Shown: in pieces, positions 2,798 to 5,650 of the stretch | Position numbering within the stretch: position 1 is the first letter of the stretch | Layout: each line of letters opens with the position of its first letter | The notes under the pieces: generated by a model | What the model was told of the DNA's origin: nothing | What the model saw: only the letters and a program-made list of their open reading frames with translations | Databases searched by the model: none | Virus record (IMG/VR): IMGVR_UViG_3300025889_000780 | Location: 1-27,227 of that record | Strand: one strand, 5' to 3' | Length of the DNA stretch: 27,227 nucleotides | Source: a virus | Made by a program: the position numbers and the translations under genes

Positions 2798-2821
2798 AAA
2801 AAAGCCCGCTCGAGGCGGGCT
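2798..2821 (-). terminator. Intrinsic terminator after the 81-aa/61-aa operon
   Basis: On the minus strand there is a GCCCGC/GCGGGC stem with a short CTCGA-type loop, followed by six T. It sits 20 nt downstream of the 61-aa gene stop. Confidence 0.9.
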
Positions 2822-2841
2822 AGTGGTGCCAGTGTGGCAAG

Positions 2842-3027
2842 TTAATCGCTGGGGGTATCTTCCAGCGACTTGCAGTGCTCATTCCAGCGATCCGCCGCCC
2901 GCGCCATGGTTAGCACTTCCTGCACCAATTCATCGCCCATATGCACGTGGCCACGGTTTGCAATCGCTGTCAGTAGCACGGGGGTAATGCCTTCCCACGT
3001 GGGGCAAATGTTTATTGTCTCGCTCAT
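2842..3027 (-). CDS. Hypothetical 61-aa protein, second gene of cassette
   Basis: The chosen start is the ATG at 3027 (MSETINICPTWEG). It overlaps the previous gene's stop by 4 nt (ATGA) and has an AAGGGGG ribosome binding site; the frame is open further upstream but would run through the preceding gene. The product is a small soluble protein with a helical middle (ELVQEVLTMARAADRWNEH). It shares an ARAADR-x-hydrophilic pattern with its upstream neighbour (ELARAADRIH), so the two may be distant paralogues or contact each other. No family is recognised. A terminator follows directly. Confidence 0.7.
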   Translation of the reverse strand: MSETINICPTWEGITPVLLTAIANRGHVHMGDELVQEVLTMARAADRWNEHCKSLEDTPSD

Positions 3028-3269
3028 GACTTCGCCCCCTTCGCTCGCTTGAACTTTACGCCCATGTCCGCCAGTAGCGTTTTGTCGAAGCTTGCAAACT
3101 CTTCCGCTAATTGCAGGAAGGCGGGGTAATGCTTTGCGAGTCTTTCGCGGTTGCTGATATCCAGCGCGCAAACTGCGGTATGAATACGATCCGCCGCCCG
3201 GGCTAATTCATAGCAACGCGTTTGCGCTACGCCTACGGTTTCCAATTCATTTTCAAATTTGCCATACAT
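3024..3269 (-). CDS. Hypothetical 81-aa protein, first gene of cassette
   Basis: The chosen start is the ATG at 3269 (MYGKFENELETVGVAQ). It lies exactly 9 nt after the ACTTTGGG leader motif shared with the two other cassettes; the longer reading would run back through that leader and the preceding terminator. The product is mostly helical, with an ELARAADRIHTAVCAL segment and a basic C terminus (KFKRAKGAKS). It is co-transcribed with the 61-aa gene through an ATGA overlap. Function is unknown; its size and basic tail would fit a small nucleic-acid-binding or host-interaction protein, but that is a guess. Confidence 0.75.
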   Translation of the reverse strand: MYGKFENELETVGVAQTRCYELARAADRIHTAVCALDISNRERLAKHYPAFLQLAEEFASFDKTLLADMGVKFKRAKGAKS

Positions 3270-3326
3270 AAGATGATCCCCAAAGTGTCGCGGCATCATT
3301 ACCGCACCGGCAGGGTATCGCATACG
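3270..3326 (-). promoter_or_regulatory. Shared cassette leader, copy 3
   Basis: In transcription order it has CGTATGCGATA (3326-3316), a GC-rich imperfect dyad (GCGG...CCGC), then ACTTTGGG (3286-3279) and 9 nt before the ATG at 3269. The GGGGA serves as ribosome binding site. The preceding terminator ends only 7 nt upstream. Confidence 0.75.
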
Positions 3327-3332
3327 CGGCCC

Positions 3333-3357
3333 AAAAAAAACCCCGCTCGAGGCGGGG
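3333..3357 (-). terminator. Intrinsic terminator after the gp88-like operon
   Basis: On the minus strand a CCCCGC/GCGGGG stem with a CTCGA loop is followed by eight T. It ends the gp88-like/64-aa unit and abuts the next cassette leader. Confidence 0.92.
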
Positions 3358-3363
3358 TCGGGT

Positions 3364-3558
3364 TTAGTGTGGAAAATACCAACTGGGGGCGCGGGCTTGC
3401 TCGCCGTGGTGTTGCCAATAGTCGGCATAATGTCGCGCCTCAGTGTATAGAGCCAGCCAATTAACGTCGGGGCCGGGCGCGAGCGGGGATCGCATCGCGG
3501 CCCGATGCCATCGCAAATAGCGCGCCGCCTTCGCTCGCCAGATCTCGCGCTTAGTCAT
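3364..3558 (-). CDS. Hypothetical 64-aa basic protein, partner of the gp88-like gene
   Basis: The start at 3558 overlaps the gp88-like stop by 4 nt (ATGA), which marks translational coupling. The product is Arg/Trp/His-rich (MTKREIWRAKAARYLRWHRAA and an ALYTEARHYADYW segment) and looks like a small helical basic protein. No family is recognised. The fixed pairing with the gp88-like gene inside one promoter-terminator unit suggests the two act together. Confidence 0.75.
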   Translation of the reverse strand: MTKREIWRAKAARYLRWHRAAMRSPLAPGPDVNWLALYTEARHYADYWQHHGEQARAPSWYFPH

Positions 3559-4265
3559 GACGCGGCCCCGATCAAATCGGGGTTATCGATCACAAAGCCG
3601 GACCGATCCCGCCGCGCGCTACCCTTCGCGGTTAGTCCGACAATGCAACCGGTCCCCTCGGTTGCGTTCAAATAGTCGGAGCGATCCCCGTCGATCACGC
3701 GCCGCCCAAGAAACTTAGCAGGCAAGCCGCCGCGAAATACAACCGCAATCGGTAACAGTGTCGCCAATGCTTTTTCATTTTGGCGGCGGTACTGGGGCCG
3801 CCCGCTATAACTGAAAATCAGCCGATAATTGTCGGGCGTTTTACAAAGCCGATCCGCGCGTTTCGTGTAATCAATGAATAACAACTTAGGGTGCGCTTGC
3901 GGTATGCCCAGCATTTCCCAACGGACATCGGACAGAACGTTAAGCCGCACCACGCCGCGCCGCCCCTCGCGCTCGCAAAGCTTTCCGAAGTTGGATAGCT
4001 CGCGGTGGAGTTGATCAAGGAAGGCCGCGCGATCATCGCGAAAGAATGCCGCCTTGCGCTGGCGCGCTTCGCGCACGTTATCAAACCGCCCGCGCCCTTG
4101 ATCCGCTAAACAAGTATCAGCGCATCCCGCCGCCTTCGATCCGGGGCACAATTCCGCATCGGGATAAAGCGATAAGCCCGCGTAACGAAATGAGCCGAAC
4201 ACGTTCCCGAGTTCCGCCGTCTTTTTCAATTTGGGGTTTGCGCCCCGTGTATCGAGTAAATGCAT
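3555..4265 (-). CDS. Phage gp88-like protein (GP88 family)
   Basis: Recognised by the conserved pattern of the phage gene-product-88 family: KTAELG and SLYPDAELCPGS near the N terminus, Cys at 40, 48 and 52 (CPGSKAAGCADTC), DQGRGRFDNVREARQRK, the signature RLNVLSDVRWE (107-117), then FIDYTKR and LIFSYSGR. Members are scattered in phages and plasmids and their biochemical role is unknown to me. The Cys cluster suggests metal binding. The start at 4265 is fixed by the ACTTTGGG leader 9 nt upstream. The 236-aa length fits the family. It is followed by a coupled 64-aa gene and a terminator. Confidence 0.85.
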   Translation of the reverse strand: MHLLDTRGANPKLKKTAELGNVFGSFRYAGLSLYPDAELCPGSKAAGCADTCLADQGRGRFDNVREARQRKAAFFRDDRAAFLDQLHRELSNFGKLCEREGRRGVVRLNVLSDVRWEMLGIPQAHPKLLFIDYTKRADRLCKTPDNYRLIFSYSGRPQYRRQNEKALATLLPIAVVFRGGLPAKFLGRRVIDGDRSDYLNATEGTGCIVGLTAKGSARRDRSGFVIDNPDLIGAAS

Positions 4266-4321
4266 AATCAGTATCCCAAAGTGTCACCGCCAATCGCGGC
4301 CCGCTTAGGGTATCGCATACG
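4266..4321 (-). promoter_or_regulatory. Shared cassette leader, copy 2
   Basis: It has CGTATGCGATA (4321-4311), a GC-rich dyad (CCGC...GCGG), then ACTTTGGG (4282-4275) and exactly 9 nt before the gp88-like ATG at 4265. The upstream terminator ends 6 nt before CGTATGCGATA. Confidence 0.75.
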
Positions 4322-4327
4322 CTAGGC

Positions 4328-4353
4328 AAAAAAAAGCCCCGCCGAAGCGGGGC
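4328..4353 (-). terminator. Intrinsic terminator after the DUF932 gene
   Basis: On the minus strand a 7-bp GCCCCGC/GCGGGGC stem with a TTCG-type tetraloop is followed by eight T. Confidence 0.95.
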
Positions 4354-4369
4354 ACACTTTGGGGAGTGT
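4354..4369. repeat. Small dyad carrying inverted ACTTTGGG motif
   Basis: ACACT and AGTGT arms (4354-4358, 4365-4369) enclose TTGGGG. Read on the minus strand it gives CTCCCCAAAGTGT between the DUF932 stop and its terminator, the reverse complement of the leader motif. A similar CTCCCAAAGTG precedes the terminator near 10.6 kb. Confidence 0.6.
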
Positions 4370-4372
4370 AGG

Positions 4373-5512
4373 TTATGCGGCCATCGCCACGCGTTGCCAA
4401 TCGGAACGGGGCAGATCCAGAACGCGCCCGCCCAGTTTCTGCCAATCGTCCACGCTGTCCGCGTCCGCTTGATGCGCTACCGCCGTGACCGCGTTAACCA
4501 TAGTGGCGCGGGTTACTGGCTGACCGGCGTAGCCTGCCTGCCCGATAGTGGCGAGCAAGCCATCCATTAGGCTGGCGGTGTCTTTTTTGGTCAGCGCTAG
4601 CACTTTGCCCATGGCTTCGACTGCTGACTGCGGCGAACCTTCGACTTTGTCCTGATGCGCGGTTTTCATTTTTTCCAGCACCTCATCGAATGATTCGCGG
4701 CTAGCGTAGGCCTTAGTCACATCCCGCATTTGAAGCGCCAGCGCGTGATTGTCCGCATCCTTCGCTTCATCTGTCAGCAGGCCCCAAGTATCAGCATCGC
4801 CACGCGCGCCGGTGATGTGCGACTTGCGGGTACGCTTTTCGGTCTGCATTCCGTTTAGGCAGGCCAACGTCCAAAACATTTGGAAAACGTTCACGCTACC
4901 GCAACCGACTTCGCTGTTACTCATGCCAATGCCCAGCGCCATGATGTCGCCAACCGCCGCGCCTTCGCCCGTGATCACTTCGGATTTGAGGCGGAGATAT
5001 AAGCGCTTATCTGTCACCGTCCCGTTTACCACTTTCCACTGGGCATCGCTGTTCATCAATTCCGGCAGGGCAGAATTCAGCAGGTGAACATTGTCGAAGG
5101 TCTTGAAACGTTCGCTGACAAAGGCCCTCGCTTCCCCGAGGTTGGCATGGCCCGCGTGTTGAAACGTGCGGATCATTCGCACCGCCGGTTCTTTCTGCCA
5201 GATGGCATTGATCAGTCCATCGAATTCGGTGGAGTAATCCTGCTGTAGGCGGCGGGCAGTCCGGACATCGATACCGGCCCGCTGACTGATCTGGTCAAAC
5301 GCCACATCGTTGGCGGTCAGGATCTGGGTGGGTGCCCCGCCGGTCTGCTCCAAAACAATCTGGCTGACCTTGCTACCGTCACCCCGGTCACCGGTGTGCA
5401 ACTGAAGCTGGTTAGTGGGGGCCAGAAAGTCCTGCGATCTGGCGGCTTGGTCCTGCACCTGCTGAAGTAAACGGGTCAGGGTGTGGTCTGAATTTTCAAT
5501 CGTATGTTGCAT
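4373..5512 (-). CDS. DUF932 family protein
   Basis: A 379-aa protein of the DUF932 (phage/plasmid-like, YfjQ-related) family. The typical blocks are visible: RAFVSERFKTFDN (129-141), YLRLKSE (172-178), MSNSEVGCGSVNVF (197-210) and ACLNGM (217-222). The biochemical role is not established. The gene is a single-gene cassette with its own leader and terminator, and the ATG at 5512 lies 9 nt after ACTTTGGG with GGGAGA as ribosome binding site. High expression is possible given the strong signals on both sides. Confidence 0.9.
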   Translation of the reverse strand: MQHTIENSDHTLTRLLQQVQDQAARSQDFLAPTNQLQLHTGDRGDGSKVSQIVLEQTGGAPTQILTANDVAFDQISQRAGIDVRTARRLQQDYSTEFDGLINAIWQKEPAVRMIRTFQHAGHANLGEARAFVSERFKTFDNVHLLNSALPELMNSDAQWKVVNGTVTDKRLYLRLKSEVITGEGAAVGDIMALGIGMSNSEVGCGSVNVFQMFWTLACLNGMQTEKRTRKSHITGARGDADTWGLLTDEAKDADNHALALQMRDVTKAYASRESFDEVLEKMKTAHQDKVEGSPQSAVEAMGKVLALTKKDTASLMDGLLATIGQAGYAGQPVTRATMVNAVTAVAHQADADSVDDWQKLGGRVLDLPRSDWQRVAMAA

Positions 5513-5566
5513 GATATATCTCCCAAAGTATGCGGCAGGATTGCCGCACCCGAACTATCGCATACG
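5513..5566 (-). promoter_or_regulatory. Shared cassette leader, copy 1, with perfect dyad
   Basis: It has CGTATGCGATA (5566-5556), a perfect 7-bp dyad TGCGGCA/TGCCGCA (5531-5537, 5542-5548), then ACTTTGGG (5529-5522) and 9 nt before the ATG at 5512. The dyad could be an operator or an RNA hairpin in the 5' leader. Confidence 0.75.
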
Positions 5567-5609
5567 TCGCCCCGCCCTGCAATGCTCTTTTTAAAATTTC
5601 TTTGGGCAC

Positions 5610-5631
5610 AAAAAAGCCGCCCGAAGGCGGC
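5610..5631 (-). terminator. Intrinsic terminator after the zinc-ribbon operon
   Basis: On the minus strand a GCCGCC/GGCGGC stem with a TTCG tetraloop is followed by six T, 20 nt after the 70-aa gene stop. Confidence 0.93.
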
Positions 5632-5650
5632 TTGGCGTAGGTGCTAGCGC

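Follow-up and report, generated by a model that had tools for sequence, protein, structure and literature searches.

The linear virus record IMGVR_UViG_3300025889_000780, analysed here in its entirety (27,227 bases; the window), carries upstream of its large terminase gene (744-2213) three consecutive minus-strand units of genes that open with the same leader. We read these units, hereafter cassettes 1 to 3, as an array of self-contained, modular accessory transcription units, and from the sequence comparisons described below we give this reading a probability of about 0.85. The cassettes encode a phrog_1362 protein of 379 amino acids (aa), GP88 together with a 64-aa protein, and proteins of 81 and 61 aa. 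Each begins with CGTATGCGATA, continues with a hairpin and reaches ACTTTGGG 9 nt from the ATG, and each is closed by an intrinsic terminator. An earlier annotation made from the letters of this DNA alone (the sequence-only reading) had placed the leaders at 5566-5513, 4321-4266 and 3326-3270, and exact pattern matches confirm these positions: ACTTTGGG-N9-ATG has exactly three perfect matches in the window, and the leader core TATGCGATA occurs exactly three times, always on the minus strand and always at a leader.

The leader recurs in related viruses. A pattern scan of IMG/VR with the 11-mer of the leader plus ACTTTGGG returned 49 viral stretches, where chance would give a few. A second sample, free of motif choice, comprised 43 GP88 relatives picked by protein alone; the core, the hairpin and CTTTGG lie directly upstream in 38 of them, a small gene stands between leader and GP88 in four, and the leader is absent from the most distant relative, L092 (L numbers are our handles for relatives). 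Pooling the relatives gave 149 distinct leader instances within one genomic block, ahead of about 22 unrelated clusters of small proteins. Two long relatives contain TATGCGATA 9 and 5 times, on a single strand and grouped in the corresponding part of the genome, and 7 and 3 of these copies, respectively, are such leaders. Presence of the motif in relatives and variation of the units among them were two points on which the sequence-only reading had staked its account, and both are found. The phages bearing the array are a widespread marine group, the nearest isolates by terminase being HTVC023P, HTVC027P and DSL-LC04. Phage isolates gave no match to the window by megablast and none to leader 1 in a distant search, and an Rfam search of the region returned no family at gathering score and only sub-threshold look-alikes, mostly at terminators. 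Protein scans with two accessory families yielded mostly contigs already in the set, and found neither family outside this phage group.

Putative promoter, hairpin and start box

Aligned on TATGCGATA, the leaders fall into two classes, with or without a terminator just upstream. Where there is one (87 cases), its T-tract stops 8 or 10 nt short of the core and fills the -35 region. Where there is none, 38 of the 40 unique sequences show TTG at offset -19 to -17, which puts TTGnnn 16-18 bp, mostly 17, ahead of GATAnn; a variant terminator is present in the two exceptions. These 40 leaders are not all independent, since 25 precede the first gene; the others are spread over about nine further gene contexts. 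The -35 falls within the last GP88 codons in L097 and L018, and more distant relatives show the -10 variants GATAAT, CATAAT and TATAAT. The leaders lacking an upstream terminator have the geometry of sigma70 promoters (TTGnnn at 16-18 bp from the -10, with an extended TGn), and the most fitting reading of the 11-mer is a promoter element of the host sigma70 type, with an extended -10 (TGC-GATAnn) and a -35 at about 17 bp. It had been proposed as a phage-specific promoter element or regulator site; the promoter stands, and the phage-specific regulator site gives way to the sigma70 extended -10 anatomy.

The base of the hairpin lies 5-8 nt past the -10 in 93 of 108 unique leaders, which is the region where transcription would be expected to start, so that the mRNA would begin with the hairpin. 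Stem sequences vary among leaders (GCGGC/GCCGC, GCCGC/GCGGC, GTTCC/GGAAC and others). Across 20 representatives, 97% of cells are paired versus 83.5% in shuffles, none of 500 shuffles shows covariation as high, and one stem pair is divided between G-C (10) and C-G (9). The case for the hairpin is built on the comparison between leaders. Among the leaders of the window, the hairpin of leader 1 has a fold z of -2.5.

In the first set, a given contig has either only GGG (or longer) boxes or only GG boxes, and when the same gene family occurs in different genomes its box follows the type of the genome; by its sequence, the leader is tied to the genome more than to the gene. The isolates have versions of their own in the same interval: DSL-LC04 has the box ACATAC[AT]G ahead of four annotated genes, in some cases closely preceded by a hairpin, HTVC027P has two TTGACA promoters with a common tail, and HTVC023P has AACTAACAAA ahead of four genes. 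In distant viral contigs the box is AGGAGCTAG (L195) or GGAGAAAA (L200). Two simpler accounts of the box were discarded. We rejected ACTTTGGG as a Shine-Dalgarno (SD) sequence only, CTTTGG being retained where GGAG is not, and dropped a self-hairpin of the start box (CACT..AGTG), which few leaders are able to form.

A cassette consists, in order, of a promoter of the host sigma70 type, a 5' hairpin, the start box CTTTGGGAG with its SD sequence, one or a few small genes and an intrinsic terminator. The part of the -35 is played by TTGnnn or, in its place, by the T-tract of the preceding terminator, and transcription would be carried out by the host RNA polymerase. Most likely, the 5' hairpin would stabilise the short mRNA by shielding it from decay at its 5' end, and would leave the start box single-stranded.

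Leaders and repeats of related kinds were also observed elsewhere. A further leader built in this way, its hairpin being the palindrome GTGTTCCAYRTGGAACA, stands before MKPETT or MIRHTK genes about 2.6-4.2 kb upstream of the first cassette in L097 (4918), L023, L018, L029, L054 (2310) and L022 (4831); no copy was found in the window. Positions 2310-5750 of L195 hold successive units whose cores are TATGCG and whose box is AGGAGCTAG, a separate sequence version of the design. Near the GP88 gene of Roseobacter phage CRP-235 (L109), upstream of 1411 and 2396, the hairpin GGGGGCAATCCTGCCCCC precedes gp59, with a loop resembling that of window leader 1, and gp59 and gp58 have the common tail AAAAGGAAATGACCAAATG. 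HTVC023P (L108) has three tandem 33-nt repeats (4218-4316) immediately ahead of gp22.

Exchange of cassettes and the 3' end of cassette 1

The gap between the first gene and GP88 differs among relatives, holding no cassette, MATITL, MARKC+MATITL, METTAEKRL or MKKPTIED; METTAEKRL, MAKAWRKK and others are also found at other positions in the gene order. When the window is compared with L022, the sequence on the left of the T-tract matches the end of the first gene at 85-100% identity, and the 40 nt that follow on the right match the GP88 leader at 95-100%. A single leader-gene-terminator unit is therefore cleanly present or absent, with its junction at the T-tract. The METTAEKRL cassette of L084 combines the hairpin type of another cassette with its own tail after the box, a mixed leader that implies a breakpoint inside the leader. 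In L012, L031 and L066 the first-position gene is replaced by a true DUF932/TIGR03299 protein with a similar leader and terminator. The suggestion that accessory genes are gained as units thus agrees with the variable content and order in relatives and with the clean L022 junction, and extends to their loss; in these comparisons, shuffling of host-type promoter-leader-gene-terminator modules as units is well supported. Since terminator and next promoter are fused via the T-tract, units would be insertable, losable and exchangeable at the T-tract or inside the leader, leaving their neighbours undisturbed.

CCCCAAAGTG lies at the 3' end of the first cassette, where in the window it forms the loop and an arm of a hairpin beside the terminator (4369-4354), and CTCCCCAAAG is complementary to the leader box CTTTGGGAG. 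What is new here, as judged from the sequences, is this element of cassette 1 (the anti-box), complementary to the leader box of all units. It was found in 37 of the 38 loci scanned, which are not all independent. The predicted duplex of anti-box and box has a mean of -21.0 kcal/mol, compared with -14.1 kcal/mol for 105 other terminator regions; the regions were classed by the anti-box itself, so that the gap measures pairing strength. The anti-box is retained after replacement of the gene and also after replacement of the stem and terminator (L081, L083, L038, L011), and in L023 its stem is altered on both sides (CCACT..AGTGG). In two independent lineages, separated by the GP88 tree, GG leaders occur together with CC elements, which have shorter C-runs. 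L173-type genomes keep the anti-box and have the box in their downstream cassettes, with none directly ahead of the first gene; this arrangement would favour action on other cassettes, as judged from the stretch directly ahead of the first gene.

A C-rich motif of this kind is known from the 3' untranslated region (3'UTR) of Staphylococcus aureus icaR, where UCCCCUG base-pairs with the SD region of the same mRNA, reducing its translation (PMC3868564). In regulation of this type, the pairing also permits cleavage by RNase III. The array likewise has a 3'UTR motif complementary to an SD region; it differs in that its motif is complementary to the boxes of many genes, and in that the pairing is a predicted one. 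Probably, the complement in cassette 1 pairs with the SD region and lowers translation, either from its own mRNA or from every cassette. We hold the antisense part of our explanation as tentative, at somewhat less than even odds. Its fullest form would make the 3' end of cassette 1 a phage-encoded antisense element, acting as a 3'UTR or as a released small RNA, which pairs with the boxes of all cassettes and determines how much the array as a whole produces, while box and anti-box co-evolve in each lineage; this form we consider rather doubtful.

Alternative explanations

Several observations weigh against the modular reading or against parts of it. CTTTGG was in the search patterns, and its invariance is therefore partly due to selection, although the protein-chosen set agrees. 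In L170 the first gene's leader retains its hairpin and box, but its core (281-289) reads TATCGCATA, which is TATGCGATA in reverse complement, and in L173-type genomes a leader is missing directly ahead of the first gene. The more divergent contigs L173 and L183 combine GG with GGG boxes, and L179, where a GG box goes with a CCC element, is a counter-example to the co-change of box and anti-box. Taken alone, the hairpins of window leaders 2 and 3 are not above shuffles, and the median p of single-leader folds is 0.057 over all leaders.

The core or the CTTTGGG box could instead be the DNA site of a phage-encoded regulator, or a promoter recognised by an RNA polymerase or sigma factor of the phage, which would place the cassettes under coordinate control. 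Such a site would suit a core more invariant than most host promoters, and the inverted copy of the box in cassette 1 could be the same DNA site turned round, for which the same co-change would be expected. We nevertheless find this unlikely: a -35 at sigma70 spacing is present wherever the T-tract is absent, the -10 variants approach TATAAT, and a family search for T7-type RNA polymerases in five long relatives, run without a working positive control, found none. It is more improbable still that the shared leaders and terminators are mainly recombination homology and owe their similarity to recent copying and not to function. Hairpin stems differ in sequence while their pairing is kept, the -35 and its spacing persist in unrelated contexts, even within the end of GP88, and the promoter-hairpin-box design recurs with other sequences in DSL-LC04; breakpoints at the T-tract and inside the leader (L084), and the likeness of boxes within each genome of the first set, are what such an origin would have in its favour.

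For the 3' element of cassette 1, a narrower role comes close to even odds: it may act on its own mRNA only, through 5'-3' pairing as in icaR, or be part of the terminator only, and in both cases the other cassettes would be unaffected. The pairing of 3'UTR and SD in icaR is a precedent in cis (PMC3868564), and the stable hairpin fold beside the terminator and the L023 stem changed on both sides also speak for such a role. A terminator-only role leaves unexplained, however, both the survival of CCCCAAAGTG after replacement of stem and terminator in the four relatives named above and the tracking of the leaders' G-run by the C-run, and a cis-only role is weakened by the L173-type genomes, in which the element is kept and no box lies directly before the first gene.

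Layout in the window, cassette proteins and known systems

All features described here are on the minus strand. Upstream of cassette 1, an AT-rich UP-like stretch (5583-5601, the AGAAATTTTAAAAAGAGCA region), delimited by column-by-column conservation in 27 distinct first-gene upstream sequences, precedes the -35 TTGCAG (5577-5582), assigned from the TTG position in terminator-less leaders, 17 bp before the extended -10 TATGC-GATAGT (5554-5564), the core of which is invariant. There follow the 5'-end hairpin (5530-5549, from its fold and covariation among relatives), the start box CTTTGGGAG including the SD (5520-5528, from the pattern match and leader alignment), the 379-aa gene (4373-5512, from profile matches), the predicted anti-leader hairpin ACACT-CCCCAA-AGTGT of the 3'UTR (4354-4369, from fold, duplex prediction and relatives) and the terminator (4328-4353), whose T8 tract occupies the -35 region of cassette 2. 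Cassette 2 comprises the extended -10 TATGC-GATACC (4309-4319), the hairpin (4286-4300), the box ACTTTGGG (4275-4282), the gene for GP88 (236 aa, 3555-4265; PF17338, phrog_1617), an open reading frame of 64 aa with no function assigned (3364-3558) and the terminator with its T-tract (3330-3359). In cassette 3 these are the extended -10 TATGC-GATACC (3314-3324), the hairpin (3290-3305), the box ACTTTGGG (3279-3286), an open reading frame of 81 aa with no function assigned (3024-3269), a gene of 61 aa that matches the phrog_22670 profile and has its own leader in L087 (2842-3027), and the terminator (2798-2821). For both of these cassettes the -10 and box are pattern matches, and the hairpins are drawn from relatives.

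Four terminators were called, at 5633-5614, 4353-4336, 3359-3339 and 2821-2803; the last three have fold z values of -3.5 to -3.9. An intrinsic terminator does close each of the three units, as had been claimed, and the gap from T-tract to leader is 6 nt by direct reading of the sequence. The first of the four (5608-5633) belongs to the upstream unit (genes 6218-5651), which had been listed as a fourth unit; that unit has the terminator and no leader. The array had also been located inside the terminase module. More exactly, it adjoins the large-terminase gene, identified by profile match and a constant neighbour of the array, and in isolate relatives the interval is the one between the small and large terminase genes.

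The assignment of the first cassette protein to DUF932 (PF06067) does not hold: the protein has no Pfam or NCBIfam match and belongs to phrog_1362, whose profile comparison with the DUF932-type replacement gave one short, non-significant alignment (E 0.098). In all, 139 viral stretches were found to encode this first gene, and a search of bacterial genomes found no relative of its protein. The gp88-like label of the second gene is upheld by GP88 (PF17338) at 118.5 bits, for a cut-off of 24.4. PADLOC and NCBIfam gave no match for the cassette proteins of the window, and in profile libraries nearly all cassette proteins are without assigned function. The anti-host or anti-defence roles suggested in the sequence-only reading are conceivable, with nothing to speak for them in these comparisons beyond small size and variability, and the expression at one time suggested with them is likewise conjectural.

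Accessory genes with their own promoter and terminator are familiar from the morons of lambdoid phages, which lie between phage genes as scattered single inserts with no common leader; the array equips its genes in the same way but in tandem and with one leader design. The PeSLs of T4-type phages were reportedly first described by Arbiol (2010) and Comeau (2014). In a later source, they are composites of promoter and stem-loop terminator between accessory genes, tied to modular shuffling (PMC4503421). The array resembles them in that promoter and stem-loop terminator are joined in the space between genes, where shuffled accessory genes meet. Its phage, however, is not T4-type, being terminase kin of HTVC023P, HTVC027P and DSL-LC04, its promoter has an extended -10 and is not a T4 early promoter, and it has in addition a covarying hairpin in the mRNA leader, a uniform start box and the complementary 3' element of cassette 1. 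The array works like a PeSL, and we do not class it as one. In the haloarchaeal virus HGTV-1, a TATA-box-like region and an inverted repeat precede most genes of one genome part, with a proposed part in regulation and shuffling (PMC3950731). The likeness lies in a promoter-like element with an inverted repeat ahead of many genes in one part; the differences are an archaeal virus and another promoter type, and the accessible part of that source describes no terminator fusion or 3' anti-box. Cluster K mycobacteriophages carry SAS/ESAS, of which SAS is a 13-bp box, GGGATAGGAGCCC, before the start codons of many unrelated genes, with 17-bp inverted repeats of fixed consensus upstream in half and a function that is not known (PMC3203893). 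Both systems place a conserved box just ahead of the start codons of unrelated genes in one phage, but the box of the array is CTTTGGGAG and not GGGATAGGAGCCC, its hairpin varies freely in sequence, and promoter and terminator lie within the unit.

The readable text of three papers on relatives mentions no promoters of this kind. HTVC027P is a related isolate and a cultured system with a published infection transcriptome, in which temporal classes are in mosaic arrangement and the early genes are all of unknown function (PMC12753301); this fits the cassette idea but does not test it. The array would offer abundant aquatic phages a concrete route for taking up and trading short genes without assigned function that stay expressible. 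Its leader may serve as a sequence handle, any open reading frame behind it being a candidate accessory, possibly early, gene, and with the pair of box and anti-box one can test directly whether a single antisense sequence governs a whole array of unrelated genes in a phage.

The roughly 580 bp (2214-2797) that separate the terminator of cassette 3 from the large terminase gene contain no convincing gene, and parts of them are conserved in 21 distinct relatives, for example AAAAAATTATAAAAAAATTTCAAACC near the terminase start; a packaging site, a late promoter and a non-coding RNA are candidates for this stretch. In the whole window, GNCCGTGG occurs 16 times versus 3.7 expected, and similar CCGTGG runs are present in the non-coding stretch ahead of the terminase in DSL-LC04.

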